DNA of 42,664 nt from a virus, in IMG/VR virus record IMGVR_UViG_3300042294_002009, positions 1 through 42,664 of that record. One strand, 5' to 3'. Of this stretch, positions 10,306-31,782 are shown one piece after another; the first letter of the stretch is position 1, and each line of letters starts with the position of its first letter. The notes beneath the pieces are model-generated. The model was given only the letters and a program-made list of their open reading frames with translations, was not told where the DNA came from and ran no database searches. Both the position numbers and the translations under genes were made by a program.

Positions 10306-10797
10306 TGCGCTTGGCAAGGCTGCAAAAACAAAGTGCGCGAACCCGGACCATGTTGGAAGCACGGACGATGGAGATTGGAACAGATGGCGAAACTGACAGA
10401 AGCGAAGAAGCGCGAGATTGCGAAAGCGCCAACCGAGCAAGAGAAGGTGAAGAAGGCTGCGGCGGTGATGATTGAGACGCCAATGGACCTGATCCGCTGC
10501 ATCTTGCAGCGGCACGAAGAAAGCGTGATTGAGGTAATGCGCGAACAACAGCAGGAAATTGAGCGGTTGCGTGAAGGGTTGAAGCTCATTACCTGCGAGC
10601 CGATAAATGCGGAGTACATGGCGCAAAACATCCTCGACGGTAAGCCGGCCTATCACGACACGATGATAAAAGTCGGCGATGGTGAGACGGCGCATAACGA
10701 CAGAGTGGAGGGGCGCGACGCAGCTTCATCGCGGCGCGTCCCTTCGCACGACGGGTTGTGCGGCAACGGTAACTACAACGAGAGGACTGACAAATGA
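10300..10797 (+). CDS. Cassette 5: Cys/His-cluster coiled-coil protein, start codon in the core site
   Basis: A 165-residue frame whose ATG (10300) is part of the core GTTATGCGC. The N-terminus has a small metal-binding-like cluster (CAWQGC...PGPCWKHG). A long charged coiled coil follows (ESVIEVMREQQQEIERLREG). The frame then reads through all of attC5 (tail RVEGRDAASSRRVPSHDG) and ends in the next cassette, its TGA overlapping the following ATG (ATGA). The attC-encoded tail is the same as in the unrelated cassette 8 protein. Function unknown. Confidence 0.6.
   Translation: MRCAWQGCKNKVREPGPCWKHGRWRLEQMAKLTEAKKREIAKAPTEQEKVKKAAAVMIETPMDLIRCILQRHEESVIEVMREQQQEIERLREGLKLITCEPINAEYMAQNILDGKPAYHDTMIKVGDGETAHNDRVEGRDAASSRRVPSHDGLCGNGNYNERTDK
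10690..10762 (+). repeat. attC5
   Basis: R'' GCGCATAAC (10690-10698) exactly complements the cassette 5 start (GTTATGCGC); R' GTTGTGCG (10755-10762). Inner stem GGGGCGCG / CGCGTCCC with one G-T pair, then CGC/GCG, loop AGCTTCATC. A 74-bp stretch (10696-10769) is identical to attC8. Confidence 0.92.
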
Positions 10798-12133: not shown

Positions 12134-12481
12134 ATGAGCATGGAAACGATGAAACAGATGCGAGAACGGATTACGCGCGAAGGCAAGACGCTAGCGCACC
12201 TGGCCGCATTGCAGGCGCGCGGGAACGTGGCCCCGGTAGTGGCGGGGAACGCCTGCCCCCGGCGCACGACGTGCATGGTGGAACTGTCCGCGCTGCGCAT
12301 GTACGAGGGGCGCGGGCGCACGATGATTGTTCCTCACGGTTGCAATCCATTCAAGACGCCGAACGACAGAGTGGAGGGGCGCGACGCAGCTTCATCGCGG
12401 CGCGTCCCTTCGCACGACGGGTTGTGCGGCAACGGCACAGAAGTCGGCGCTGGCGACACGGCGATGAAAGGAAAGCAGTGA
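12134..12481 (+). CDS. Cassette 8: small protein with attC-encoded tail
   Basis: A 115-residue frame with GAGAGGAC before ATG 12134. The first 75 residues are the likely cassette protein: a helical N-terminus (METMKQMRERITREG), then GNACPRRTTCMVELSALRM with two cysteines. The frame continues through attC8 (RVEGRDAASSRRVPSHDG tail, as in cassette 5) and through a dispersed-repeat copy (EVGAGDTAMKGKQ) and ends overlapping the GTG of the methyltransferase. Unknown function. Confidence 0.55.
   Translation: MSMETMKQMRERITREGKTLAHLAALQARGNVAPVVAGNACPRRTTCMVELSALRMYEGRGRTMIVPHGCNPFKTPNDRVEGRDAASSRRVPSHDGLCGNGTEVGAGDTAMKGKQ
12357..12428 (+). repeat. attC8
   Basis: R'' CGCCGAAC (12357-12364) exactly complements the cassette 8 start; R' GTTGTGCG (12421-12428). 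Identical to attC5 over 74 bp (12362-12435), including 13 bases past the core. Confidence 0.92.
12440..12463 (+). repeat. Dispersed repeat copy 5, start of cassette 9
   Basis: GAAGTCGGCGCTGGCGACAC followed by GGCG, 12 bases behind the cassette 9 core and translated as EVGAGDTA in the run-on frame of cassette 8. Confidence 0.7.
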
Positions 12482-13281: not shown

Positions 13282-14313
13282 ATGAGTGAAGTCATCGAAC
13301 GAGACGCGACAATCGCGCCGGTCAAACGCGACACGCCGGCACCGGCAAAGCCGCCCAAGCTGCTCGACCAGGTGCGCGAGCGCATCTGCGTGCTGCACTA
13401 TGCTCGCGCCACCGAGAAAACCTACCTGCACTGGATCAAGTTCTACATTCACTTTCACGACCTGCGCCACCCGCGCGACATGGGCGCCGCCGAAGTCGAA
13501 GCCTTCCTGTCCCACTTGGCCACGGTACGCGACGTTGCGGCAGGCACGCAGAACCAAGCCATGCACGCCATCCTGTTCCTCTACAAACAGGTGCTCGGCG
13601 TCGAACTCGGCTGGCTTGACAGCATCACCCGCGCCAAGCCCTCCAAGCGGCTGCCCGCCGTCCTCACTCAGGGCGAAGCACAGCGCCTGCTCGCTGCCAC
13701 GCGCGGCACGTCGGGCCTCGTCGTGAGGCTGCTCTACGGCACCGGCATGCGGCTCATGGAAGGCCTGCGCCTGCGCATCAAGGATGTCGATTTCGAGCGC
13801 AACCAGATCACCATCCGCGGCGGGAAAGGCGACAAGGATCGCATCACCATGCTGCCCACCAGCATCGTGCCGGTCCTTCGCGCGCACATCGCCCAACGCC
13901 GCGCCTGGCACGACAAGGATATGGCGCTCGGCAAAGCCGACGTCGAACTGCCGCACGCCCTCGAACGTAAGTACCCGAACGCCGGGCGTGAATGGGGCTG
14001 GCAATACATCTTCGCCGCGGCCGACTACAGCACCGATCCGCGCACCGGCGTCATCCGTCGCCATCACGTCCACGAAAAGACCATCCAGCGCCATGTGAAA
14101 GACGCCGCGCACCGTGCCGGCATCGACAAGCCGGCGCACCCGCACACGCTGCGCCACTCCTTCGCAACACATTTGCTCGAAGCCGGCTACGACATCCGCA
14201 CCGTGCAGGAGCTGCTCGGCCATTCTGATGTGGCCACCACCATGATCTACACCCACGTCCTCAACAAAGGCGGGCGAGGCGTCGTCAGCCCGCTCGATCG
14301 CGTTACCACTTAA
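13282..14313 (+). CDS. intI: Integron integrase (IntI-type tyrosine recombinase)
   Basis: A 343-residue tyrosine recombinase. Catalytic residues: Arg157 (GMRLMEGLRLR), Lys in GKGDKDR, His288-x-x-Arg291 (HTLRHSFATH), His314 (LLGHSD) and Tyr323 (MIYTHV). Residues about 226-262 (ALERKYPNAGREWGWQYIF, then STDPRTGVIRRHH) are the extra domain found in integron integrases and absent from phage Xer-like integrases; it binds folded attC sites. GGAGA lies 9 bases before ATG 13282. The gene is followed after 17 bases by parB in the phage early operon. A separate phage integrase exists at 17327, so this enzyme serves cassettes, not prophage integration. Confidence 0.92.
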   Translation: MSEVIERDATIAPVKRDTPAPAKPPKLLDQVRERICVLHYARATEKTYLHWIKFYIHFHDLRHPRDMGAAEVEAFLSHLATVRDVAAGTQNQAMHAILFLYKQVLGVELGWLDSITRAKPSKRLPAVLTQGEAQRLLAATRGTSGLVVRLLYGTGMRLMEGLRLRIKDVDFERNQITIRGGKGDKDRITMLPTSIVPVLRAHIAQRRAWHDKDMALGKADVELPHALERKYPNAGREWGWQYIFAAADYSTDPRTGVIRRHHVHEKTIQRHVKDAAHRAGIDKPAHPHTLRHSFATHLLEAGYDIRTVQELLGHSDVATTMIYTHVLNKGGRGVVSPLDRVTT

Positions 14314-17136: not shown

Positions 17137-17472
17137 ATGGCTACCCCCACCCTGCCCGATGAATTCTTCAGCATTGCCGAGCTGCAGGCCACCGCCGGCA
17201 GTCCGCAGCGAGCACGCATCATTGCCTGGCTGATCAGCAGCAGGGTTCCCCACGTCATCGGCCTGCATGGCTGGCCGCTGGTCTATCGCGATCGACTCTT
17301 GCCACAACACTACAGCGAGGCGCAGAATGCTTCCCCTACCCAGACCTTCGATTTCTCCGCCATCCATGCCACCCGCAGGACGCCCGCGCTGCGCTGCCAA
17401 CAGAGACCTGCCACCGGGAATGATCCGGCGCGTGCGCGGCGGATCAACCCGGTACTACTTCCAGCATCCTGA
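17137..17472 (+). CDS. DUF4224-like small protein before the integrase
   Basis: A 111-residue frame. The first 60 residues (DEFFSIAELQATAGSPQR, RIIAWLISSRVPHVI, GWPLVYRDRL) fit the DUF4224 pattern of small proteins found directly upstream of phage integrases, which may serve as excisionases or integration helpers. The C-terminal half overlaps the start of the integrase gene in another frame and is probably less constrained. Confidence 0.6.
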   Translation: MATPTLPDEFFSIAELQATAGSPQRARIIAWLISSRVPHVIGLHGWPLVYRDRLLPQHYSEAQNASPTQTFDFSAIHATRRTPALRCQQRPATGNDPARARRINPVLLPAS

Positions 17473-18478
17473 CGGCAGCCAGCCGCCCCTGGGCGGCGAT
17501 TTCGACGAGGCCGTGAAGAAGTGGACGGCCATGCGCGTCAAGCCGCTCAACGGGGCTCAGGACGTCTTCTCGACGATCGCCAAGGAATTCCGCACGAAGG
17601 GCCTGACCGAAGTCTCGCCGCGCACCAAGAAGCGCCTGTCGGCAAAAACTCAGAAGGAATATGAAGCCGCACTCGACCGCCTTGAAGCCGTCTTCAAGGA
17701 CGCGCCCATGGCCACGATCAAGCCGGTACACGTCGGCAAGCTGCTTGACGAACTGGCCGGCACGCCGGTGCTGGCCAACCGCATCAAGGCCACGCTCTCG
17801 CGCATGTGGAACTGGGCGCGATCACGCGGGAAGACGGACCTACCCAACCCTTGCACCGGCGTCGAAGGCTACGCCGAAGAAGTGCGCACAGTCCTGGTCA
17901 CGGCGGAAATGTTCTGGGCGATCTACGATCGCGGCGACCAGGTGCTACGAGACTGGATGCGTCTGGACATCGTCATCGGCCAACGGGTCAGCGACATCAC
18001 CAGAATCATGCGCACCGACGTGGTGACTGACGGCGACAAGAAGGATGCGCTGCGGTACCGATCGACCAAAACAGGAACGCTCGGCCTGATGGCCGTCGAG
18101 CGCGACCTGAAGGCGCTGATCGAGGAGCTGAAGGAACGCAAGCGGAAGGCGACCGGCCCCTGGCTGCTGCAGACGGACGAGGGCCAGCGAGTAACCCACG
18201 CCATGTTGCGCAATCGATTCGACGATGCCAGGATCAAGGCCAGGGAAGATCTCGGCGAGATATTCATCGACTGGCAGATGAGGGATCTGCGCAAAACGAG
18301 TCTCAACCAGGCAGCCACGCTCGAGGAGGCGCGCCGACGCGGATTGCATACCGATCCGCGCACAACCGCACGTCATTACGAGGTGCGAATCGACACGCTA
18401 CCGGGATCAATCCCGATGCGGCCAGAGGAGGCGGAATTACTGACATCTGTCAGTAATTCAGACAAAAAAACGGGCTAG
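17327..18478 (+). CDS. int: Phage tyrosine integrase
   Basis: A 383-residue integrase. The N-terminus (NRDLPPGMIRRVRGGSTRYYF) is the DUF3596/AP2-like arm-binding part; an SAM-like core-binding domain follows (TQKEYEAALDRLEAVF). The catalytic domain shows Arg in DIVIGQRVSDI, a central MRDLRKTSLNQA box and the C-terminal RTTARHYEVR with the tyrosine. ATG 17327 has GAGGCG upstream; ATG 17366 is an alternative. It lies next to the attP core and the CTGTCAGTAATTC sites, which identifies it as the enzyme for prophage integration, distinct from IntI. Confidence 0.9.
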   Translation: MLPLPRPSISPPSMPPAGRPRCAANRDLPPGMIRRVRGGSTRYYFQHPDGSQPPLGGDFDEAVKKWTAMRVKPLNGAQDVFSTIAKEFRTKGLTEVSPRTKKRLSAKTQKEYEAALDRLEAVFKDAPMATIKPVHVGKLLDELAGTPVLANRIKATLSRMWNWARSRGKTDLPNPCTGVEGYAEEVRTVLVTAEMFWAIYDRGDQVLRDWMRLDIVIGQRVSDITRIMRTDVVTDGDKKDALRYRSTKTGTLGLMAVERDLKALIEELKERKRKATGPWLLQTDEGQRVTHAMLRNRFDDARIKAREDLGEIFIDWQMRDLRKTSLNQAATLEEARRRGLHTDPRTTARHYEVRIDTLPGSIPMRPEEAELLTSVSNSDKKTG

Positions 18479-21824: not shown

Positions 21825-22288
21825 AGCGTTGCCGCCAGCGTGAAGAGGTCGTCGAGCTGCTGGCTGGTCAGGGTCAGCGCAGCGGCCAGCGTCGAGACAA
21901 GTGCATTATTTCGCTGCACTTCGCTGGAGAATTCCCAGGTGATCTTCGTCGCTTCGTCGGCAGCAGCGACGGCGGTATTGACCTGCGACAACAGACCAAC
22001 TTGAAGCAGAGCCAAGCGCGCTTGCCGCATGGTTACGACCGCGGGCACAGCAATAACTTCCGGCACATATTCCGGCAGATCGGGCGGCTGCACATTCGGG
22101 AAGTCGGCGCGGACAAAGCCGAAGCGCGCGGCGGTCGACTCGTCCTCGATGGCCCGCCACGTTTGCGCGGCGTCGTCCTTTTCCAGCCGATAGAGCGTGC
22201 CGGCCAGGATGCCCATGAATTCAGCGTGAGCCGGCGTGCCGGCAATGGCATCAAGATCAGCCCGTGTGTTGATGACAGTGGATACCAT
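21821..22288 (-). CDS. Hypothetical protein next to the DGR reverse transcriptase
   Basis: A 155-residue protein. The N-terminal 100 residues look like a tail-fibre assembly or short fibre-associated protein (FMGILAGTLYRLEKDDAAQ, FPNVQPPDLPEYVPEV); the C-terminus is helical (LTLTSQQLDDLFTLAATL). ATG 22288 lies within the 3' end of the reverse-transcriptase gene (32-base overlap). A role in tail-fibre assembly is a guess from position. Confidence 0.5.
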   Translation of the reverse strand: MVSTVINTRADLDAIAGTPAHAEFMGILAGTLYRLEKDDAAQTWRAIEDESTAARFGFVRADFPNVQPPDLPEYVPEVIAVPAVVTMRQARLALLQVGLLSQVNTAVAAADEATKITWEFSSEVQRNNALVSTLAAALTLTSQQLDDLFTLAATL

Positions 22289-23255
22289 AGCGATTCTCCA
22301 AATGGTTAAAAAGGTGGCAAGTGTCGGCGCTGGCCGCATGGCCGCGCCATGAGGCGATAAAACGGGTAAGGCGTTCGGGCTCACCGAAGCGCTGGTAGCG
22401 TGCGATCTTGCGCTTGGCGGCCACCACCGAGCGCTGGCGCAGCAGCTTGTGGCGCGGCCAGATGCGGTAGCCAAGAAAATTGATTCCGCGTGAAATGGGC
22501 GACACCTGCCATTTGCTGATGCCAAGCCGCAGCCGGCGCGCGCTGGTCTCGCTGATCTGTTCAAACCATTCGCGCAGCTCGTGGGGGTTGGACGACAGAA
22601 TCACCATGTCATCCATGTAGCGCGCCCAATGGCGAGCGCCCAAGTCGTGATGCACAAAGCGGTCGATCACATCGCCATACACGTTGGCGAATAGCTGGCT
22701 GGTCAGGCTGCCAATCGGCAAACCGCGACCGGTATCCGGCACCATGGCGCGGATCAGCTCCAGCGTTTTGCGACACTTGATCTTGCGTGCGATCAGGCCG
22801 TGCAACACCGCCAGATCAATCGACGGAAAAAACTTGGCGTAGTCGGTTTTAAGGAAATGCGTCGCCTGCGTGCGGCGTAGTTCGGCCTGAATATGCCGCA
22901 CCCCGGCGTGTGTGCCCATGTCGGTACGGCAGGCAAAAGTGTAGGGTAGCAGCGCCCGGTCGAAGATTGGCCCGATCACATTCACCAGCGCGTGTTGCGC
23001 CAATCTATCCTTGAAATCCAGTGCCGAAATCAGGCGCGGCTTGGGCTCGTGGATGGTGAATTGGCGGTAGCTTCCCTGCACCCATGCACCATCCAGAATG
23101 GTCTCGCGGATAGACCGCAAATTCGTCTCGGCGAATTCCTTGAATTCCAGAAACCCCCACGTCTGGCGCTTGCCGCGAGCGGTGCGCCAGTAGGCATCGC
23201 GCAGATTGTCCATATCCACGATGCGTTCGATCAGATGATTGGCGCGCTTTGGCAT
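22257..23255 (-). CDS. DGR reverse transcriptase
   Basis: A 332-residue reverse transcriptase. The motif carrying the first catalytic Asp is TDYAKFFPSI (137-146), the DGR/group-II-specific fingers motif is GLPIGSLTSQLFANVY (178-193), and the active site is RYMDDMVIL (212-220). A C-terminal basic thumb (RQRSVVAAKRKIARYQRF) follows. It copies TR RNA into cDNA with errors at adenines and the product replaces VR by homing. The end of the protein includes AASADTCHL, a weak match to the dispersed repeat. Start ATG 23255 lies 175 bases after TR. Confidence 0.95.
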   Translation of the reverse strand: MPKRANHLIERIVDMDNLRDAYWRTARGKRQTWGFLEFKEFAETNLRSIRETILDGAWVQGSYRQFTIHEPKPRLISALDFKDRLAQHALVNVIGPIFDRALLPYTFACRTDMGTHAGVRHIQAELRRTQATHFLKTDYAKFFPSIDLAVLHGLIARKIKCRKTLELIRAMVPDTGRGLPIGSLTSQLFANVYGDVIDRFVHHDLGARHWARYMDDMVILSSNPHELREWFEQISETSARRLRLGISKWQVSPISRGINFLGYRIWPRHKLLRQRSVVAAKRKIARYQRFGEPERLTRFIASWRGHAASADTCHLFNHLENRYGIHCHQHTG

Positions 23256-23430
23256 GGTTAAAAGCTGGCCGCGCCGTTCGCCACAACATGGTGGCTACTA
23301 GGCGCTCTACCAGACCCCCAAAGGTATTCGCCGAAGCAGGACAACACGGCTGACCACAAGGAATAAGGCCGGCTCGTTGCGCCATGGCAACAACGAAGCC
23401 CCTGCGCTACATATCCAAAATCCCTGTCCT

Positions 23431-23546
23431 CACAGACGCCGCGCACCCCGATGTTGCTGTTCGAGTTCGTGGGCGAGTTGTTCCAGTTCGAGGCACGCGA
23501 ACCGGAGTTCGACGTGTTGTCCCAGTTGCCCCCGAATAGCGCGGCG
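23431..23546 (-). repeat. DGR template repeat (TR)
   Basis: 116 bp between avd and the reverse transcriptase. In the VR frame it is rich in AAC codons (GGNWDNTSNSGS, SNWNNSPTNSNSN), the codon that best allows change by adenine mutagenesis. 24 adenines on the coding strand, 11 of which differ in VR. The last 23 bases at the low-coordinate side are identical in TR and VR and should hold the IMH-type homology. Confidence 0.96.
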
Positions 23547-23549
23547 TTT

Positions 23550-23936
23550 TTACCCATGCTGCCCCCTGCGTTTTTGCTTCACAATCCACGCGCCCAACAG
23601 CCGCCCCACTTCAGCCAACAGCACCTGCGCTGTTTCGACTTGGTGAGACGACATGCCGCGCACGGGCTTGCTGTTCAAAAACCGCAGCCAGAATCGCAGA
23701 TGCGCCAAACCGGCATCCGCGACGTAAAGGCGCGAAATCTGCCCAGACTTCCCCGCCTCCACAATCAGTTGCACCTGCCCAAGCAGGCAGTCGATGAACA
23801 TGGCCCGCGCCGTGCCATGCCGGCGCGGGAGGTTTTGTGCAATCGGGTACAGATACGCAATCACCGTCTCGAATTTCTCGACGATGAGCATCTGCTCATA
23901 CGACTGCACGGATTCCTTTTCAGGGCTCATGTTCAT
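23550..23936 (-). CDS. avd: DGR accessory variability determinant (Avd)
   Basis: A 128-residue basic helical protein with the four-helix pattern of Avd: EQMLIVEKFETVIAYLYPIA, LPRRHGTARAMFIDCLLGQ, LAHLRFWLRFLNSKPV and VLLAEVGRLLGAWIVKQKRR. Avd forms a pentamer that binds the reverse transcriptase and TR RNA. Start ATG 23936 (or 23930) lies just beyond the VR hairpin; the stop lies 4 bases before TR, so the template RNA overlaps the avd transcript. Confidence 0.88.
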   Translation of the reverse strand: MNMSPEKESVQSYEQMLIVEKFETVIAYLYPIAQNLPRRHGTARAMFIDCLLGQVQLIVEAGKSGQISRLYVADAGLAHLRFWLRFLNSKPVRGMSSHQVETAQVLLAEVGRLLGAWIVKQKRRGQHG

Positions 23937-23940
23937 TCCC

Positions 23941-23956
23941 GGCGGCTGTCGCCGCC
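23941..23956 (-). promoter_or_regulatory. DGR target hairpin with GRNA tetraloop
   Basis: GGCGGC and GCCGCC pair around GACA on the coding strand, 20 bases downstream of VR and next to the stop codon of the variable protein. BPP-1-type DGRs need such a hairpin with a GRNA loop for efficient retrohoming; GACA fits the loop rule. Confidence 0.85.
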
Positions 23957-25315
23957 TCAATCAAGAATCATGTGGTCACAGACGCCGCGCACCCCGATGC
24001 TGCCGCTCGAGGCCGTGGGCGAGTTGCTCCAGCCCGAGGCACGCGAACCGGAGCTCGACGTGTTGCCCCAGTAGCCCCCGAATAGCGCGGCGCTTTCCAT
24101 CTGGTAGGTGCTGCCACGTCCGCCCGTGTTGGCTGTCCAGGCTGCCGATGCGGCACCGCCGCCGAACTCGGCACCCCACACGTACAAACATCCCGTGGAT
24201 TGAATAGCGCCCCACTTGGAGGTGAACTCGTTCCATGTATTTGTGTAGCCTGTGCCGTTGACTCCCGTGGTCGGCACATCCGACCCCTCGCTGGATTGCG
24301 CCTCTGTTGTCCCGTAGGCCATGGCCGCAAATTCGTCGTAGGTTGGCAGGCGCTTGCCCCACGACTGCATGACTTCAGCCGCTTCCCACCAGTTGAGCGT
24401 GCTGTAGGCGGTCGAGCCATTGCCGCCAAACTTGGTGGGTATCTTCGGCGGGCTACTGCCGTCGGCAATCGTTACGTTGTATTTGCTGGTGCCATTGGTC
24501 AGGTGGTCGACGCCACATAAATAGATGTCCGACCAAAACGAATCCGCCACCAGCGTCATGCCGCGCGGATCGGGGCACGCCGGCCGGAATTTCAAGTCCC
24601 ACAGTGAATAGGCGTTGATCGCGGCCGTGGTATCGCCACCCGCTACGCCTGTCGCGTTGCCACCCGGAGCGTAGTGGAAGCCGCCAATCTTGCGCCAGTT
24701 GCCCGCGCCCGGTGCCGACACGAAATCGGTCGTGGCCTGAATGGTGGCATCGGACTTGAGCCAGATGGCGTAATCGGTGCCAGCGGTAAGCGTCGGCATG
24801 GTGATCGAAGTCGCGCCAGAGAACGTAACGGTCGTGCCCGCTACATCAATGATGGTGCCGGCCTTGATTTCTGCCGTTCCCGCCCCGGTTTTGGTGAAAG
24901 CGACAGTGGTGGGATCGGCTTTGTAAAAACTGCCCCTCGCCGACCCGATGTCCGACAGCAGCGCCAGCGTGCCACTTTGATTCGGTAGTGCAATCGCCCG
25001 GTCGGCGGTTGGATCAACCACTGTCAGCGTGGTCTCGAAGGCGTCGTCGGTGGTGCCCTCGAACACCAGCGCAGCACCGGCACCAAGAACAGGCGCGCCG
25101 GTGGCCAGATCGCAGACGATCAGCCAGGCGCTGTTTGCCGCATTGCGTATCTTCAGCAAGCCTGTGGTGGTGTCCGCCCACCACTGATACGAATACGTCG
25201 TGGCCGGCGCGGTCGCGCCGCTGCTGTTGGCGACCAGCGCCGCGAGGGCGTCGTTGACGTCGGCGCGAAGGGTGGGGAAATTCGCGTTGGCGATGATCAT
25301 GTCATGTTGCGGCAT
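23957..25315 (-). CDS. DGR variable protein, tail protein with C-type-lectin-like end
   Basis: A 452-residue protein. The N-terminal half is tail-fibre-like (NANFPTLRADVNDALAALV, then beta-rich segments). The C-terminal half is a formylglycine-generating-enzyme/C-type lectin fold: RGMTLVADSFWSDIYLCG, WWEAAEVMQSWGKRLPTYDEF, WNEFTSKWG and the end GVRGVC. VR encodes the final 40 residues (LFGGYWGNTSSSGSRAS, GWSNSPTASSGSIGVRGVC). This is the receptor-binding face varied by the DGR, so the protein probably decides host range. Confidence 0.92.
   Translation of the reverse strand: MPQHDMIIANANFPTLRADVNDALAALVANSSGATAPATTYSYQWWADTTTGLLKIRNAANSAWLIVCDLATGAPVLGAGAALVFEGTTDDAFETTLTVVDPTADRAIALPNQSGTLALLSDIGSARGSFYKADPTTVAFTKTGAGTAEIKAGTIIDVAGTTVTFSGATSITMPTLTAGTDYAIWLKSDATIQATTDFVSAPGAGNWRKIGGFHYAPGGNATGVAGGDTTAAINAYSLWDLKFRPACPDPRGMTLVADSFWSDIYLCGVDHLTNGTSKYNVTIADGSSPPKIPTKFGGNGSTAYSTLNWWEAAEVMQSWGKRLPTYDEFAAMAYGTTEAQSSEGSDVPTTGVNGTGYTNTWNEFTSKWGAIQSTGCLYVWGAEFGGGAASAAWTANTGGRGSTYQMESAALFGGYWGNTSSSGSRASGWSNSPTASSGSIGVRGVCDHMILD
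23977..24092 (-). repeat. DGR variable repeat (VR)
   Basis: 116 bp at the 3' end of the variable gene. Against TR: 11 substitutions, all at TR adenines on the coding strand (nine A to G, one A to C, one A to T), changing nine residues: N to Y, D to G, N to S, N to G, N to S, N to A, N to S, S to G, N to S. No change at C, G or T. Confidence 0.97.
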
Positions 25316-25326
25316 GGCGGGGTCCT

Positions 25327-27909
25327 TTAGGCAATTTGCTCAGCCGCGACGCGCAACTGAGTGATCTTGATGGTGTAGTTCTGGTCGCCGCTGGTCAGGC
25401 GGGCGCGGAAATCAAAGCCGCGGGCGACGAATTCGGCGGCGTCGAGCCGCTTCCAGGCAGACCACGTCGGGGTGCCGGCGGGGTCGTCGTCGGTCTCGCG
25501 CGCCTCGACCCAGGCGTCGACCGGCGCGCCTTCGGTGCCGTCGAACAGGCCGGCGGCATCGTCGAACAGCCCGGCTGTCTCGTCGAAACTGGTCGATACG
25601 TTGACCGCCGAGGCGGCGATCAGCGAGGTCAGGCGAACGCGCGACACGACGCCCAGGTCCATGCCCGCCGCGAAGTCATAGGTGCCAGCCGCTGCCACGC
25701 CGCCGAAGTAATCGAAGAGGCCGGCGGCATCGTCGAAATTGCCCGTTGCGGCATCGAACAGCGTGTCGCTGCCCAGTTGCAGATCGACGCCATCGACGTA
25801 GGTGCTGGAATGCGTGCCGAGGAAGTCGTCGTCCTCCTGCACCGATGACAGCGTGCTCCACGCCAGCGCAGTGGCTTGTTTGGTGCTGATGCTGGCGGCG
25901 GTGACGGAGGGCCGGCCGCCGCTGTCTTCGGCCTTGAGCAGGTAGGTGCCGGCCTTGAGCGGCAGCACCAGCACGGTGGCCGTGCCGGCGCCGGCTTCGC
26001 CGATGCCGGTGCTGGTTTCCCATGTCGCGCCGGAAAGGCTGGGCGAGTGCCGCGCGCGAATCGCGCCGCCCTGGCGCACATCAAGATCCGGATGCAGCGC
26101 GAAGGTGAGGATGGCCAAGCCGCCGGCAGCCTGGATACCCAGCCCCGTGATGTCCGCCGGCGGCGCTGTCAGGCCAAGGATTTCTTTGGCGCGGGTGGCG
26201 GAATAGGCGGAGGCCACACCCATCGAATTGCGGGCGCGAACACGGAATTCATACTGCCCCGGCGCGATGTCGTTGATGTCGATCGCCAGCGCGGCGGAGG
26301 CCGGCAGCACTACCCACGCGCCCCCGGCGGGGCGGTACTCGGGGAGGTAATCGCGCACGAAGGCATCCACCACAGCCGCCCATGACACCGTGGCGCGGGC
26401 CTTGACGCCGGCGGAGCCGGTGGTCTCGAACAGGGTTTCGGTGACGTCGGGCGTGCCGGGGGCGGCGACGGTGTAGGGGTCGGGCAGGTTGGTCGCCACC
26501 GACACGCGCGGCGTGGTGAGCGGCTCGGCGACATAGACCGAGTCGTCGTATTCCACCGCCGTCACTTCTACTTCGTCGGAAGACAACAGGCCGATGCGCA
26601 CCACGCGGAAGGCCTTGGCGGTCCAGCCCGGGGTGCTGTGCGTGATGTTGACCACGTCGCCGACTTCGCAGCCCAGCCCGGCGATGGTGGCGCGGAAGCT
26701 GGCGATGGTGCCGAAGCGGCTCTGCTTCAGGTGCCGCTGGCCGAGCATCTGCGCTTCGTAGGCGTCGGTGGTGAAGGGCAGATCGATCTTGCTCTCCAGC
26801 ATCAGCGCGTTGTCGATCACGCGGTAGGCGGCGGATTCGGCCAGCGCGATGTCGGGCTGCCACTCGTTGTCCGGATTGGTCCAGTTGGCGCGCACGCGGT
26901 TGAAGCGGCCGCGCTTGTTGCCCAAGGCGATGTTCCAGGCGCCGACGATGGTGTCTTCGGTGAAGGTGAAGGCGGCGGTGTCGGCCTTGTCCAGCACCAG
27001 CTTGTGCTTGCCGCCGCTGAACACCAGCATGCCGCGCATGCAGGTCAGCAGCGCGCGGACGTTCTCGATGCTGCTCTTGCTGGTATCCACCAGGCCGTTG
27101 CAGGTGTAGCGCGGCTGCGTGCCGGCCGGCGTGGGGATGCTGGCGTCGCAGTAGTTCGCGGCGGCGATGATGGTGGCGTCATCGATGCTGGCCTCGGCGA
27201 TGCCGCGCCCGTAGCGGGCATTGGTCAGGTAGTCGCGCAGGCACAGCGCCGGGTTGTCGCTCCATGCGGTGGTCGAGTCGCGCGGGTCGAACACCTTGCG
27301 GCCGCGAATGTCGGCGGTGATGACCGGCACGCCGTGCCACACGTCCTGGTTGAAGGTCAGGCGGGCGACGGTGTAGGCGACGCCGGAGAGCTTGTGCGCG
27401 GTGGTCCATTTGGCGGGCAGCGCCGCGACCAGGCTACTGCTGGCGGCTTGCGCGTCGGCGCCGGTGAAGTGCTCCAGGGTGAAGGCGCCGGCAAAGCGGG
27501 CGTCGGTGCTGATCGTGCCGTCGAAATACACTGCATCGAAGCCGTCGACCTCGCCTTCGCAATGCGCCAGCACGATGTGCAGGTAGGTGTTATCGGCGCC
27601 GGACACTTCCGTCAGGCAGCGCGTGCCGCCGATGCGGCGCGTGCCGTAGAGCACCGGAAGCGGGTCGACCGTGCCGGCGGTATTGAGCAGCATGCCGCGC
27701 GCGGCGGCCACGGCGGGGGATTCTTGTTGTTGGTCTTGTTCGTCGGAGCCGATCACTCCGCCGAGAACTGACGAAGCCACCATGCTGGCGACGCCAGAAA
27801 CAAGTGCAGCCCCCATACTTCCTGCTACGACCATCCCGGCGGACACCGCATAGGCAGTCGCTGCATAACCAGCGGCCATGCTGCCGACAGCAACAATAGC
27901 GGCAGGCAT
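25327..27909 (-). CDS. Tail tip attachment protein (lambda J-like)
   Basis: An 860-residue protein. The N-terminal hydrophobic/Ala-rich part is followed by LPVLYGTRRIGGTRCLTEV and the phage tail-tip region DVWHGVPVITADIRGRKVFD, NPALCLRDYLTNARYGRGI, GMLVFSGGKHKLVLDK. The C-terminal half holds fibronectin-III-like segments (PGQYEFRVRARNSMGVASAY) and repeats of FDxAAGLFD. It is the central baseplate hub or host-specificity protein. ATG 27909 overlaps the stop of the upstream gene (TAATG) with GGAGGG before it; the longer frame runs into a dispersed repeat copy. Confidence 0.85.
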   Translation of the reverse strand: MPAAIVAVGSMAAGYAATAYAVSAGMVVAGSMGAALVSGVASMVASSVLGGVIGSDEQDQQQESPAVAAARGMLLNTAGTVDPLPVLYGTRRIGGTRCLTEVSGADNTYLHIVLAHCEGEVDGFDAVYFDGTISTDARFAGAFTLEHFTGADAQAASSSLVAALPAKWTTAHKLSGVAYTVARLTFNQDVWHGVPVITADIRGRKVFDPRDSTTAWSDNPALCLRDYLTNARYGRGIAEASIDDATIIAAANYCDASIPTPAGTQPRYTCNGLVDTSKSSIENVRALLTCMRGMLVFSGGKHKLVLDKADTAAFTFTEDTIVGAWNIALGNKRGRFNRVRANWTNPDNEWQPDIALAESAAYRVIDNALMLESKIDLPFTTDAYEAQMLGQRHLKQSRFGTIASFRATIAGLGCEVGDVVNITHSTPGWTAKAFRVVRIGLLSSDEVEVTAVEYDDSVYVAEPLTTPRVSVATNLPDPYTVAAPGTPDVTETLFETTGSAGVKARATVSWAAVVDAFVRDYLPEYRPAGGAWVVLPASAALAIDINDIAPGQYEFRVRARNSMGVASAYSATRAKEILGLTAPPADITGLGIQAAGGLAILTFALHPDLDVRQGGAIRARHSPSLSGATWETSTGIGEAGAGTATVLVLPLKAGTYLLKAEDSGGRPSVTAASISTKQATALAWSTLSSVQEDDDFLGTHSSTYVDGVDLQLGSDTLFDAATGNFDDAAGLFDYFGGVAAAGTYDFAAGMDLGVVSRVRLTSLIAASAVNVSTSFDETAGLFDDAAGLFDGTEGAPVDAWVEARETDDDPAGTPTWSAWKRLDAAEFVARGFDFRARLTSGDQNYTIKITQLRVAAEQIA

Positions 27910-28337
27910 TACGCAACCCTCCAGCCAGCCGCGAAAGTCGGCGCTGGCGACACGGCGGCATAGGCCAGCAGACACACGCCGGCGGTCTCGGTGGCCGACA
28001 GCACGCGGGCACCCAGCGCCACATGCGCGGCGATCTGCCCGTCGGCGGTCTCGCCGATCAGGATGTCGCCCTCCTGCGCGAAGGCCGGTTCGACTTCCAC
28101 CAGCCCGTCGCGCAACAACTGATCGATCACGCCGCGCGCGCCATGCTTGCGCGTCCAGGCTCGCGCACGGGTGGCCGTGGCCATGTGCTTGCGGTGCGTC
28201 GCGTGCAGCGCCGTGCCGTGCATGGCATCTACAGCACGCAAGGCCAGCGCCACGCAGTTGGTTTCGCCCCAGACGAACATGCGGCCAAGCTCGGCGCGCA
28301 CGAACTGCTGCAGCAGAAGGTCGGGTTGCGCTATCAT
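27909..28337 (-). CDS. Tail assembly protein (DUF6950/NlpC-like) with repeat-encoded end
   Basis: A 142-residue protein starting MIAQPDLLLQQFVRAELG, with FVWGETNCVALALRAVDAM as a papain-fold-like Cys motif and IAAHVALGARVLSATE as a possible His site. Small proteins of this kind (lambda K/NlpC-like position) precede the tail tip gene. The last 14 residues (SPAPTFAAGWRVA) come from a dispersed repeat copy and the sequence after it. TAATG overlap with the tail-tip gene. Confidence 0.65.
   Translation of the reverse strand: MIAQPDLLLQQFVRAELGRMFVWGETNCVALALRAVDAMHGTALHATHRKHMATATRARAWTRKHGARGVIDQLLRDGLVEVEPAFAQEGDILIGETADGQIAAHVALGARVLSATETAGVCLLAYAAVSPAPTFAAGWRVA
27933..27957 (+). repeat. Dispersed repeat copy 6, at a tail-gene junction
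   Basis: GAAAGTCGGCGCTGGCGACAC followed by GGCGG, perfect core. It lies in the last codons of the DUF6950-like gene, just before the start region of the tail-tip gene, on the non-coding strand. Confidence 0.75.
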
Positions 28338-28365
28338 GGCGCCGTCATCCGATCCGGAGAACCCC

Positions 28366-28632
28366 ATGCGCGCCCTGCCCCTGATTTTTGCCCTGCTGTT
28401 GGCTGGCTGCAGCATTGCCCCGGCGCGGCTTGAAAGGGAGCGCGCAGCGATCCGCGACAAACCACCGGCGTATCAGGCCGGCTACATGGAAGGCTGTGAG
28501 AGCAGCCTATCGGAATCGGAAATAATTCCAAAGGACGAGGCGAAATACCGCCGCGACGATGCGCGCATGAAGACTGACCCAGAGTACGCGCTGGGCTGGA
28601 ATGACGCCCGCTGGAAGTGCCGCGTGCATTGA
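28366..28632 (+). CDS. Small lipoprotein on the opposite strand of the late operon
   Basis: An 88-residue lipoprotein: signal peptide MRALPLIFALLLAGC with lipobox LAGC, then YQAGYMEGCESSLSES and ALGWNDARWKCRVH with two further cysteines. GGAGA lies 6 bases before ATG 28366. It is a plus-strand gene between minus-strand tail genes, with its start only 28 bases from the start codon at 28337. Inverted orientation, own ribosome binding site and lipoprotein signal fit a moron expressed from the prophage, possibly for superinfection exclusion (compare Cor or Llp). Role inferred. Confidence 0.7.
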   Translation: MRALPLIFALLLAGCSIAPARLERERAAIRDKPPAYQAGYMEGCESSLSESEIIPKDEAKYRRDDARMKTDPEYALGWNDARWKCRVH

Positions 28633-28638
28633 TCGCCA

Positions 28639-29202
28639 TCACGCCGGCCCCCAGGTAATCTGCCGATTCAACTGCGACACGTACTCGAAGCCCAGGTCGC
28701 CGGGGAACCATATCTGCTGTTCCTCGTGGTTCGTATGCCGCCCCGGCGTGCGCTCGAAGTCGATCCAGTGGCTGCTGGCCGAAATCGTCACGATGCAGCG
28801 GCCGTCGGCGGGGTCTTCTTCAATCGCCGGCGAATCAACACGGCCATCGAAGATCGGCAGCGGGTCGATCAGCACCGCCTCGCCGCCATCCAGAAACCCC
28901 TTGCGGATCACCAGCCGGCGGTCGATGTACTCATACGACAGAATCGCCGCGATCAGGGTCTGGTCGACGCCCGACAACTGCACGCTGGCCTGCGTGATGG
29001 TCAAGTCGCCCGCCTCTTCGATGCCGCTGAATTCGAGAAAATGCCCCAGCGCCGGGTAGGTGTTGCCATTCCAGTCGATGCTGCGATAGGCGTCGGTGGC
29101 GTAGGTGGTGGCGCCGTCCAGGTACAGCTCGAACAGGTGCACCGGCTGATTGGCGTCCTTGGCATATTCGGCGATCACGCCGGCGCTAGCGCCCCTGTTC
29201 AT
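28639..29202 (-). CDS. DUF2163-like tail protein
   Basis: A 187-residue protein with LFELYLDGATTYATDAYRS, NGNTYPALGHFLEFSG and IFDGRVDSPAIEED, the layout of DUF2163-type minor tail proteins (lambda L-like position) that link the distal tail protein to the hub. ATGA-type overlap with the gene upstream at 29199-29202. Confidence 0.7.
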   Translation of the reverse strand: MNRGASAGVIAEYAKDANQPVHLFELYLDGATTYATDAYRSIDWNGNTYPALGHFLEFSGIEEAGDLTITQASVQLSGVDQTLIAAILSYEYIDRRLVIRKGFLDGGEAVLIDPLPIFDGRVDSPAIEEDPADGRCIVTISASSHWIDFERTPGRHTNHEEQQIWFPGDLGFEYVSQLNRQITWGPA

Positions 29203-29792
29203 GGCGACTCCACCAACTCGCAGGACCAGTCGAACACCGGGCGGGCCTGTATGCCGACTTCGTGCGAATCGCCGCCGAAAGCGACAGTGAAGGGCACATT
29301 GGTCACCACCAGCGCTTCGTTGTCGGCCACCGCCGAATACAGCGCGGGCTCGATCGCCAGCGTGACTTCGCCGCTGCCGTTGCTGACGGCGTCGGCGGTG
29401 AGCATGTACACCTTGGCGTGGGCGAACTTGATGAAGTCGCCGGCTTTCAACACCGTGCTGCTGACCGCCCAGCCGTCGGTGAGGATGCTGCGCCCCGCCG
29501 TCTGCGCGCCCTTCACCAGCGGCGTGCCGGTCACAGCGGTCTGCGGCTGGCCGATGATGCTGGGCACGAAGCTGAAGGTGCCATACTGCCCGCGCTGCGC
29601 CAGCGCAAAGGCCAGGAGCGGCGCCATCTCGGCGCGGGTGCGGTTGTGGTAGCCCAGCGCGAAGCCCCAGCGCTGCGCGCCACGGCTGCGCGTCTGCCGC
29701 TTGAGTGAGTGCGCCACCGACACCAGCGTCGGCTGGATGGTGCGCAGGCTCATGGAGGACGGCGCCGGCGAGGTGGGGAAGGTTCCACTCAT
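29199..29792 (-). CDS. Distal tail (minor tail) protein
   Basis: A 197-residue protein. The motif MAPLLAFALAQRGQYGTFSF is the usual wxAFLxxLxGxxGTF signature of phage distal/minor tail proteins, preceded by RGAQRWGFALGYHN and followed by beta-rich segments. It directly follows the tape measure gene, the normal position. The fragment at 6919 carries a similar motif. Confidence 0.75.
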   Translation of the reverse strand: MSGTFPTSPAPSSMSLRTIQPTLVSVAHSLKRQTRSRGAQRWGFALGYHNRTRAEMAPLLAFALAQRGQYGTFSFVPSIIGQPQTAVTGTPLVKGAQTAGRSILTDGWAVSSTVLKAGDFIKFAHAKVYMLTADAVSNGSGEVTLAIEPALYSAVADNEALVVTNVPFTVAFGGDSHEVGIQARPVFDWSCELVESP

Positions 29793-29793
29793 G

Positions 29794-31782
29794 TCAGGCG
29801 CTCATCGGCGTGATGCGGTTGCGCATCTGCTGCCGGGCGGTGATGCCTGGCACGTTGCGATAGATGCGCTGCTCCAGCGCCGCCAGCGCGGCGTTGATTT
29901 GCGGGATCACCGACGCATCGGCGCCGCGGGCGTCGATGGTGACAGGCATGTCGATCGTGACGCTGTCGCCCCCAAAGCCCCGCGCCCGATTCTCGCCGGC
30001 CGGCACGATGCGCTCGCCCTTATGGATTTGCGCGATCATGTCGCGCGGGACATAGTCCGTACCACTAGCGAAACTGAATTTCGGAATGAAGAAATCAGTG
30101 AGCGAATCCATCCCAAACCCGCCCGATGAAAACCCGTCAAATGACTTCGACACAGCTTTCCCGATCGGCTCGGTCACGCTCTTGCGCAGGATGATGCGGG
30201 CGATGTCCTTGTCCAACCCTTTTAGCACATCAGAGAGGCTCTTGCCGCCAATCGCTGCCTCCTCGAAGGCGCTGTTGAAGCCCATCCCCATGTCGTGGGC
30301 AAAGGTGTCGACTTCCTTGACCGCCTCGCCCAGCGTGCCCAGCCGTGCCTGCGCGGCTTCGATGAACTGGTTTTCGCTGATGTGCCCGCCTTCCAGCATC
30401 GAGGCCAGCAGTTCCATGTCCTTGCGGGTTTCTTCCAGCTTTGCCGTCGGCGTGGCGGCCAGGAGCTGCATCAGTCGATCGGTTTCCTTGCTGGCCTTGT
30501 CGGTCTGCCCGGTGAGCTTGGCCATGGCCGACGTGTAGATGTCCATGTCGAGACCGGAATCGAAGAACAGCTTGTCGAGCGCCTCGATCTGGTCGGCCAG
30601 CTCGCGCGACTTGACCACCGCGCTGCTGTTGATGGCGCCGGCCACGGCCTGGTTGATGCGGGAGGCGTAGTCGTCGACACCATGAAATTTTGCAGCTTTC
30701 TTTTCGTGGCCCTCCTTAGCCAACCCCATTGCCTTTCGGGTCGCCTCTTGTTCTCTCTTTATTCGAGCAACGATTTCGGCGGCTGTTTCGGGCCGCTTCT
30801 GCTCTGGACCTTCCAACCCAAGCCCGTCTCCCAACGCCGCCATTTCACGATAGATGCGTTGAGCCTGAGCACGTTCCTCCAGCGCGGTCTTGTAGAAGTT
30901 CTGGCTGACGTTGCCAGTCGTGATCTTGGCCATCGACTCATTGAAGTCGGCGGCAAACTCGTGAGCCGACGCCCCAACTTGCTTGATCAGAGCGGACAGG
31001 GGATTAAGTACCTGCGCGCCAATTCCGCCGAACCCAATCCAGATCGCTTTGAGGGCACCGCCTTCCTGCGCCGCGATAGCCATCGCAGCGGAGATCTCAG
31101 TCATGGCCGGCAGCATGCTCGAAACCATGGCCATGGAGGCGACCTTGCTATGTAGCGCTAGCTCGGACAGTTGATCGTTGAACTTGTCGGCCTGCGGCGC
31201 GAGCGCGGCCATACGCTCGCCGTAGACCTTGGCTTTTTCCTGCGCCTCGGACAGCCCTTTGCTCCCCTGATTGAGCATAGGGATCATGTCCATACCGGCC
31301 TTGCCGAACAGCTTGACAGCCAATGCCGTCTTGGTAACTCCGTCTGGCATGTTGGCAAACAGATCGGCGAGTTGAATCAGTGCGCCATTGGCATCAGTTG
31401 CCGTGATACCGGCTTTTTTCAACTTGTCGGAATGGTCAACCATGAAGGTCGACAGTCCCTTGACGCCCTTGGCCAACGATTCGAGGCTGGTCCCAGACTG
31501 TTCTGCGGCGAGCTTCCAGGTGGCCAGATCCTTGACGCTGATGCCGACCCGTTGCGACAGGTCGTTCATCTCGTCGCCGAGGTCGATGATGCCCTTGATG
31601 TTGTCGATGAGCGCGCCGACGGAGAAGGCGGCGGCCATGCCGGCGAAGGCGGCCTTGGCGGCGCCGAAGGCGGCATCCATGCGCGCGGCGCTTTTTTCCG
31701 CCAGATGCGACACCTTGCCCAGATCCTGCTCGATGTTGGCGAGCTTGGCATTGATGTCGATGGTGAGCGTGGCGAGTGCCAT
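29794..31782 (-). CDS. Tail tape measure protein
   Basis: A 662-residue protein, long and mostly helical. The N-terminus (LTIDINAKLANIEQDLGKV) is followed by Ala-rich helices and a possible membrane-active segment; the middle contains GKAGMDMIPMLNQGSKGLSE and the end YVPRDMIAQIHKGERIVPAGE, the classical tape measure ending. About 660 residues predict a tail near 100 nm. ATG 31782 overlaps the stop of the frameshifted chaperone (TGATG). Confidence 0.9.
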   Translation of the reverse strand: MALATLTIDINAKLANIEQDLGKVSHLAEKSAARMDAAFGAAKAAFAGMAAAFSVGALIDNIKGIIDLGDEMNDLSQRVGISVKDLATWKLAAEQSGTSLESLAKGVKGLSTFMVDHSDKLKKAGITATDANGALIQLADLFANMPDGVTKTALAVKLFGKAGMDMIPMLNQGSKGLSEAQEKAKVYGERMAALAPQADKFNDQLSELALHSKVASMAMVSSMLPAMTEISAAMAIAAQEGGALKAIWIGFGGIGAQVLNPLSALIKQVGASAHEFAADFNESMAKITTGNVSQNFYKTALEERAQAQRIYREMAALGDGLGLEGPEQKRPETAAEIVARIKREQEATRKAMGLAKEGHEKKAAKFHGVDDYASRINQAVAGAINSSAVVKSRELADQIEALDKLFFDSGLDMDIYTSAMAKLTGQTDKASKETDRLMQLLAATPTAKLEETRKDMELLASMLEGGHISENQFIEAAQARLGTLGEAVKEVDTFAHDMGMGFNSAFEEAAIGGKSLSDVLKGLDKDIARIILRKSVTEPIGKAVSKSFDGFSSGGFGMDSLTDFFIPKFSFASGTDYVPRDMIAQIHKGERIVPAGENRARGFGGDSVTIDMPVTIDARGADASVIPQINAALAALEQRIYRNVPGITARQQMRNRITPMSA

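Follow-up and report, generated by a model that had tools for sequence, protein, structure and literature searches.

Background

Does the tail module of an uncultivated phage contain a complete and working DGR, and, if so, which protein does this element diversify? The question is raised by a 42,664-nucleotide stretch of viral DNA (IMG/VR record IMGVR_UViG_3300042294_002009, positions 1 to 42,664; termed here the window), in which a reverse transcriptase (RT) gene lies close to two near copies of a 116-bp repeat. It has been proposed that phage DGRs are broadly active and that their targets have a modular architecture, in which a C-terminal C-Lec domain is carried by varied N-termini (Roux et al. 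2021; PMC8144416). The analysis described here makes it very probable that the window encodes a complete, recently active DGR of the BPP-1 kind, located within the tail module of a temperate siphophage and diversifying the receptor-binding end of an Mtd protein.

Results and discussion

The template and variable repeats

The template repeat (TR; minus strand, 23431-23546) is AAC-rich, with 24 adenines among its 116 bases, and aligns without gaps over its full 116 bp to the variable repeat (VR; minus strand, 23977-24092), at a spacing of 546. The two repeats mismatch at 11 positions, each of which corresponds to an adenine in the TR: nine are A>G, one is A>C (24012) and one is A>T (24073). Given 24 adenines in 116 TR bases, the probability that 11 random mismatches would all fall on A is 3e-9. 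The homology is, in fact, slightly longer (23430-23550 for the TR and 23976-24096 for the VR) and includes a twelfth A>G substitution at 23547/24093. Beyond 23429/23975, on the 3' side, mismatches occur at non-A bases as well; these constitute the IMH/IMH* difference, as in BPP-1, rather than mutagenesis. When sought across the window, the repeat was found to be present only twice--that is, there is neither a third copy of the TR nor a second VR--and hence the element has a single target. The last part of avd, the TR and part of the DGR RNA are spanned by an open reading frame (23258-23557, minus strand) that shares the reading frame of the VR within mtd; it is probably a by-product, the TR having originated as a copied piece of coding sequence.

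The surrounding cassette

On the minus strand the parts of the element occur in the order mtd (25315-23957), hairpin (23956-23941), avd (23936-23550), TR, DGR RNA (23399-23264) and RT (23255-22257). The RT (332 aa; Pfam RVT_1) contains a YMDD motif and the sequence IGSLTSQ in motif 4; its residues 1-328 match the BPP-1 DGR RT (PDB 8ub7) with an E-value of 7e-135, which is the best PDB match, other RTs scoring 1e-14 or worse. The RNA, which is situated between the TR and the RT gene, matches the Rfam family Phage_DGR (RF03022) over its full length (1-127) with 102.2 bits, versus a gathering score of 50, and is retained across relatives. The accessory protein Avd matches Bbp7 (PDB 4dwl; E 3.5e-51) and the Pfam family bAvd (PF22296). 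The initiation of mutagenic homing (IMH) sequence (23962-23982, minus strand), which is identical to that of BPP-1 at 20 of 21 bases, sits at the 3' end of the VR, and the TR diverges at the corresponding bases.

Directly after the mtd stop codon, and 20 nt past the VR, is the hairpin GGCGGC-GACA-GCCGCC, the loop of which conforms to GRNA (DNA folding energy -8.8 kcal/mol, z -2.3). Guo et al. 2011 (PMC3240598) described a GC-rich hairpin with a stem of 7-10 bp and showed that the GRNA loop matters in BPP-1; the loop and position of the window's hairpin fit this description, but its 6-bp stem falls below that range. Most relatives have an equivalent hairpin at the same distance, with a stem of 5-9 bp and a GRNA or similar loop. 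In an initial annotation, made from the window's sequence, the element had been called a complete DGR, with two 116-bp repeats at the coordinates given above, 11 adenine-only mismatches of the same composition (9 A>G, 1 A>C and 1 A>T), a GACA (GRNA) hairpin 20 bases after the VR, and avd and RT following in the BPP-1 order; realignment and recounting reproduced the repeats and their mismatches, every named part was located, the VR-avd-TR-RT order equals that of BPP-1, and the Phage_DGR RNA can now be added.

The target protein and its place in the tail

The target gene, mtd (23957-25315, minus strand), encodes 452 aa, of which residues 126-452 match the Mtd crystal structures 1yu0-1yu4 up to their C-terminal end (for 1yu4, residues 53-381, E 8e-131) and also the Pfam family mtd_2nd; the matched region comprises the second domain and the C-terminal C-type-lectin module, which carries the VR. 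The N-terminal domain of BPP-1 Mtd (its first about 50 aa) is absent from the target, the match beginning at Mtd residue 53. Residues 1-73 (25097-25315, minus strand) form an N-terminal adapter that is common to the fibres of siphophages lacking a DGR. Judged by these matches, the target is not a full-length Mtd but a fusion of this adapter with an Mtd receptor module (aa 126-452). An AlphaFold2 model of the target (15 rows) had a mean pLDDT of 42.6, which is too poor for a fold search, and the assignment of its fold therefore rests on the sequence match to the solved Mtd. The initial annotation had described the target as the C-type-lectin-like end of a tail protein next to the tail-tip gene; the neighbouring gene is indeed there, but the description of the protein was incomplete, inasmuch as it is a true Mtd homologue fused to a siphophage adapter.

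Immediately upstream of mtd is a gene for a J-like tail-tip protein (25327-27975, minus strand; PHROG 31, central tail fiber J, E 2e-93; Pfam PF13550). In DGR-less relatives the gene after J, which encodes a fibre, contains this adapter too: over about 70 aa, the identity is 84% in the IMG/VR loci L039-L041 and 50% in L035 and L036. Roseobacter phages, CRP-811 among them, likewise have it in the fibre that follows J. In all of these phages, however, the C-terminal ends of the fibres differ greatly and are unrelated to that of the window's target, and tblastn found neither a DGR RT nor Avd in the fetched IMG/VR loci (L035, L036 and L039-L041). Conversely, in relatives that possess the DGR, N-termini of other kinds precede the same block of Mtd, Avd, TR and RT. 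The co-inheritance of adapter and J, together with the adjacency of the two genes, suggests that Mtd attaches to the J-like tip through the adapter. A further locus (L042:19361-20281, minus strand) encodes a distant RT (30% identity); the same phage has, elsewhere, a J that is 50% identical and a fibre with an adapter of the same type.

By analogy with BPP-1, the element would operate as follows. An RT-Avd complex would bind a transcript that spans the TR and the structured RNA next to it (23264-23399), and would make from it a cDNA in which errors at template adenines are frequent. This cDNA would then replace the VR at the 3' end of mtd, steered by the IMH and the hairpin beyond the stop codon, while the TR itself would stay unchanged. 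The receptor-binding C-terminal domain of Mtd, which the N-terminal adapter would hold on the J-like tip, would thereby vary in some of its residues, and progeny phages might then bind different surface receptors--that is, switch tropism.

The phage and its second source of tail variation

Siphophage genes within the window encode a terminase, portal, protease, capsid, head-tail adaptor, tape measure, distal tail protein and the J-like tip. Two different integrase-like genes (13282-14313 and 17267-18478), a ParB-like gene between them, and methyltransferase genes suggest a temperate life. Exact 74-bp direct repeats (10696-10769 and 12362-12435), 1,666 bp apart, lie around a DHH phosphoesterase-like gene. 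The window contains no terminal repeat and, as regards clues to the host, no tRNA; a single scan of contigs for a host yielded nothing beyond an RT match of 40% in a Spirochaetaceae MAG. The search for near phage relatives returned none, only short methyltransferase matches.

From the middle of the tape measure gene to the middle of J (26368-31171), the contigs L002 and L003 carry a diverged allele, with J at 61% aa identity, whereas the sequences on either side of this segment are 99.3-100% identical between these contigs and the window. The window's allele is present in contig L033, which shares its source metagenome with L002. As read from these contigs, the tail of one phage population varies through such an allele swap as well as through the DGR.

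Comparison with BPP-1 and other phages

The closest well-characterized system is that of BPP-1 (Rauchvirus, NC_005357), which has the same mtd-avd-TR-brt order, 67% identical cassette DNA, and proteins that are 59% (RT), 64% (Avd) and 63% (Mtd module) identical to those of the window. The likeness extends to the IMH, the GRNA hairpin, the Phage_DGR RNA and the adenine-only differences between TR and VR. BPP-1 differs, however, in being a podovirus, whereas the window belongs to a siphophage with a J-like tail tip and a tape measure; moreover, its hairpin stem is 8 bp rather than 6, and the N-terminus of the window's Mtd is a siphophage adapter. No DNA match to BPP-1 was found in the window outside the DGR cassette, which has accordingly passed from one type of phage to another. 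The Mtd module is present, with 38-42% aa identity, in further siphophages, namely S-CBS1, S-CBS3 and Marinomonas phage P12026; no reverse transcriptase is annotated within 4 kb on either side of their Mtd genes, and they apparently represent Mtd without a neighbouring DGR. With respect to the metagenomic phage DGRs of Roux et al. 2021, the window shows no difference of principle, but adds contig-level evidence of exchange.

Evidence of recent activity

That the element has been active had been proposed initially from the TR and VR alone; two further kinds of comparison independently back this proposal. First, a scan for strain variants based on the VR skeleton found the same cassette on two other IMG/VR contigs only, L002 and L003; their match to the window starts at 26367 and reaches 7364 in the former and 18388 in the latter. 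The L002 contig shows 19 mismatches to the window, all of them within 26368-26482, at the edge of the divergent tail segment, so that the rest of the shared stretch, including the VR, equals that of the window. Contigs L002 and L003 differ from each other at only 4 of 11,484 bases (24055, 24054, 24016 and 18409), and the first three of these lie in the VR, at TR adenines (Fisher P 6e-8 for TR-A sites of the VR versus the rest).

Second, a scan with the IMH pattern retrieved 71 stretches, most of which have a recognisable TR/VR pair. In six pairs of these relatives with identical TRs (including L060/L096, L062/L085, L102/L117 and L023/L116), the two VRs are distinguished by 13-20 TR-A sites and by 0-3 VR positions of other kinds, and in such pairs shared VR substitutions do not exceed chance expectation. 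The Bordetella variants BPP-1, BIP-1 and BMP-1 exhibit the same pattern, their VRs varying at TR-A sites. For 14 distinct elements pooled, 189 of 199 TR/VR mismatches are at A, and the changes at A are A>G (51%), A>T (31%) and A>C (19%). Two relatives have unusual templates: in L070 (10557-10675), where Avd and an intact RT lie on either side of the template position, the repeat there retains no more than 7 adenines and has itself a diversified look, and the TR of L089 (730-846) is half-way to adenine exhaustion (14 A). The former gives the impression that the template was overwritten and thereby exhausted of adenines; an assembly error is another possibility.

A special mechanism favouring A>G, which might have been invoked for 10 of the window's 12 substitutions, is made unnecessary both by the prevalence of A>G within the family and by the published bRT error profile (PMC12875486). 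In the BPP-1 DGR reconstituted in E. coli, cytosine misincorporation, which yields A>G in the VR, is preferred (PMC12875486), and the window's A>G excess agrees with that preference; its G-rich substitution set is, as measured against the pooled elements, a mild extreme of the family spectrum.

Alternative explanations

The L002-L003 comparison has one feature that counts against the preferred reading, that of an active DGR. The VRs of the window and of L003 share 11 substitutions relative to the TR and differ at three sites; at each of these, a single mutation of an ancestral A, to G, T or C, would account for the difference. Under a simple model, about 2 shared substitutions would be expected of VRs homed independently (P 2e-6), which implies that both VRs descend from one homed VR through about three later changes; a single full TR-templated replacement would not yield such a pair.

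This step-wise appearance, and the L002-L003 VR difference itself, could be an effect of assembly, namely a consensus or mosaic of mixed VR variants. Such an effect is unlikely. In its favour, the contigs are metagenomic, and sample 3300034092 holds both tail alleles (L033 and L002) and is thus a real strain mixture. On the other hand, kilobases of identical or near-identical sequence flank the VR on both sides, the VR-focused pattern appears on independent contigs elsewhere in the family, and mixed VR variants would themselves indicate DGR diversity.

Improbable as well, and a little more so, is a DGR that was once active and is now silent, its TR/VR pattern being a relic and the three L002-L003 differences being point mutations kept by selection on receptor binding. 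The identity of the window and L002 VRs, and the recurrence of the 11 substitutions in L003, accord with such a history; moreover, given three late changes within the VR by chance, their all landing on TR adenines has a probability of 0.013, which is not extreme. Against it, the ORFs, RNA, IMH and hairpin are all intact; the three changes are each interpretable as departures from an ancestral A, and two of them are transversions; and relatives with nearly the same machinery and identical TRs have fully independent VRs.

It is very doubtful that the VR in this lineage diversifies by increments on its existing adenines rather than through wholesale replacement from the TR--with a transcript of the VR serving as template, for example, or with a cDNA:VR heteroduplex being repaired in patches. 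Point mutation under selection, or the blending of variants in a consensus, can also explain the likeness of the window and L003 VRs, and step-wise mutagenesis of a standing VR is the less likely account. Finally, two diverged duplicates of a gene end devoid of retroelement function, which the presence of two copies 546 bp apart might suggest, have practically no chance of being correct, being already excluded by the adenine-only changes (P 3e-9) and the conserved machinery--an adjacent RT and Avd and the RF03022 RNA--and opposed also by a TR that stays constant across relatives while the VR varies.

Conclusions

Both the DGR machinery and the modularity of its targets were already known, and the window is a well-supported but ordinary case of the BPP-1 kind, in which an Mtd module has been placed on a siphophage adapter. 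The step-wise difference between L002 and L003 poses a small puzzle as to how retrohoming resolves. More generally, this type of element, of which the podovirus BPP-1 has the case known in detail, is extended by a siphophage cassette of Mtd and DGR that is intact and apparently active; the cassette makes the exchange of receptor modules visible in the sequence, in that the adapter stays with J while Mtd-Avd-TR-RT travels as a block; and the near-identical contigs, in which the TR is fixed and the VR has changed at TR adenines, provide a clean natural record of DGR activity.
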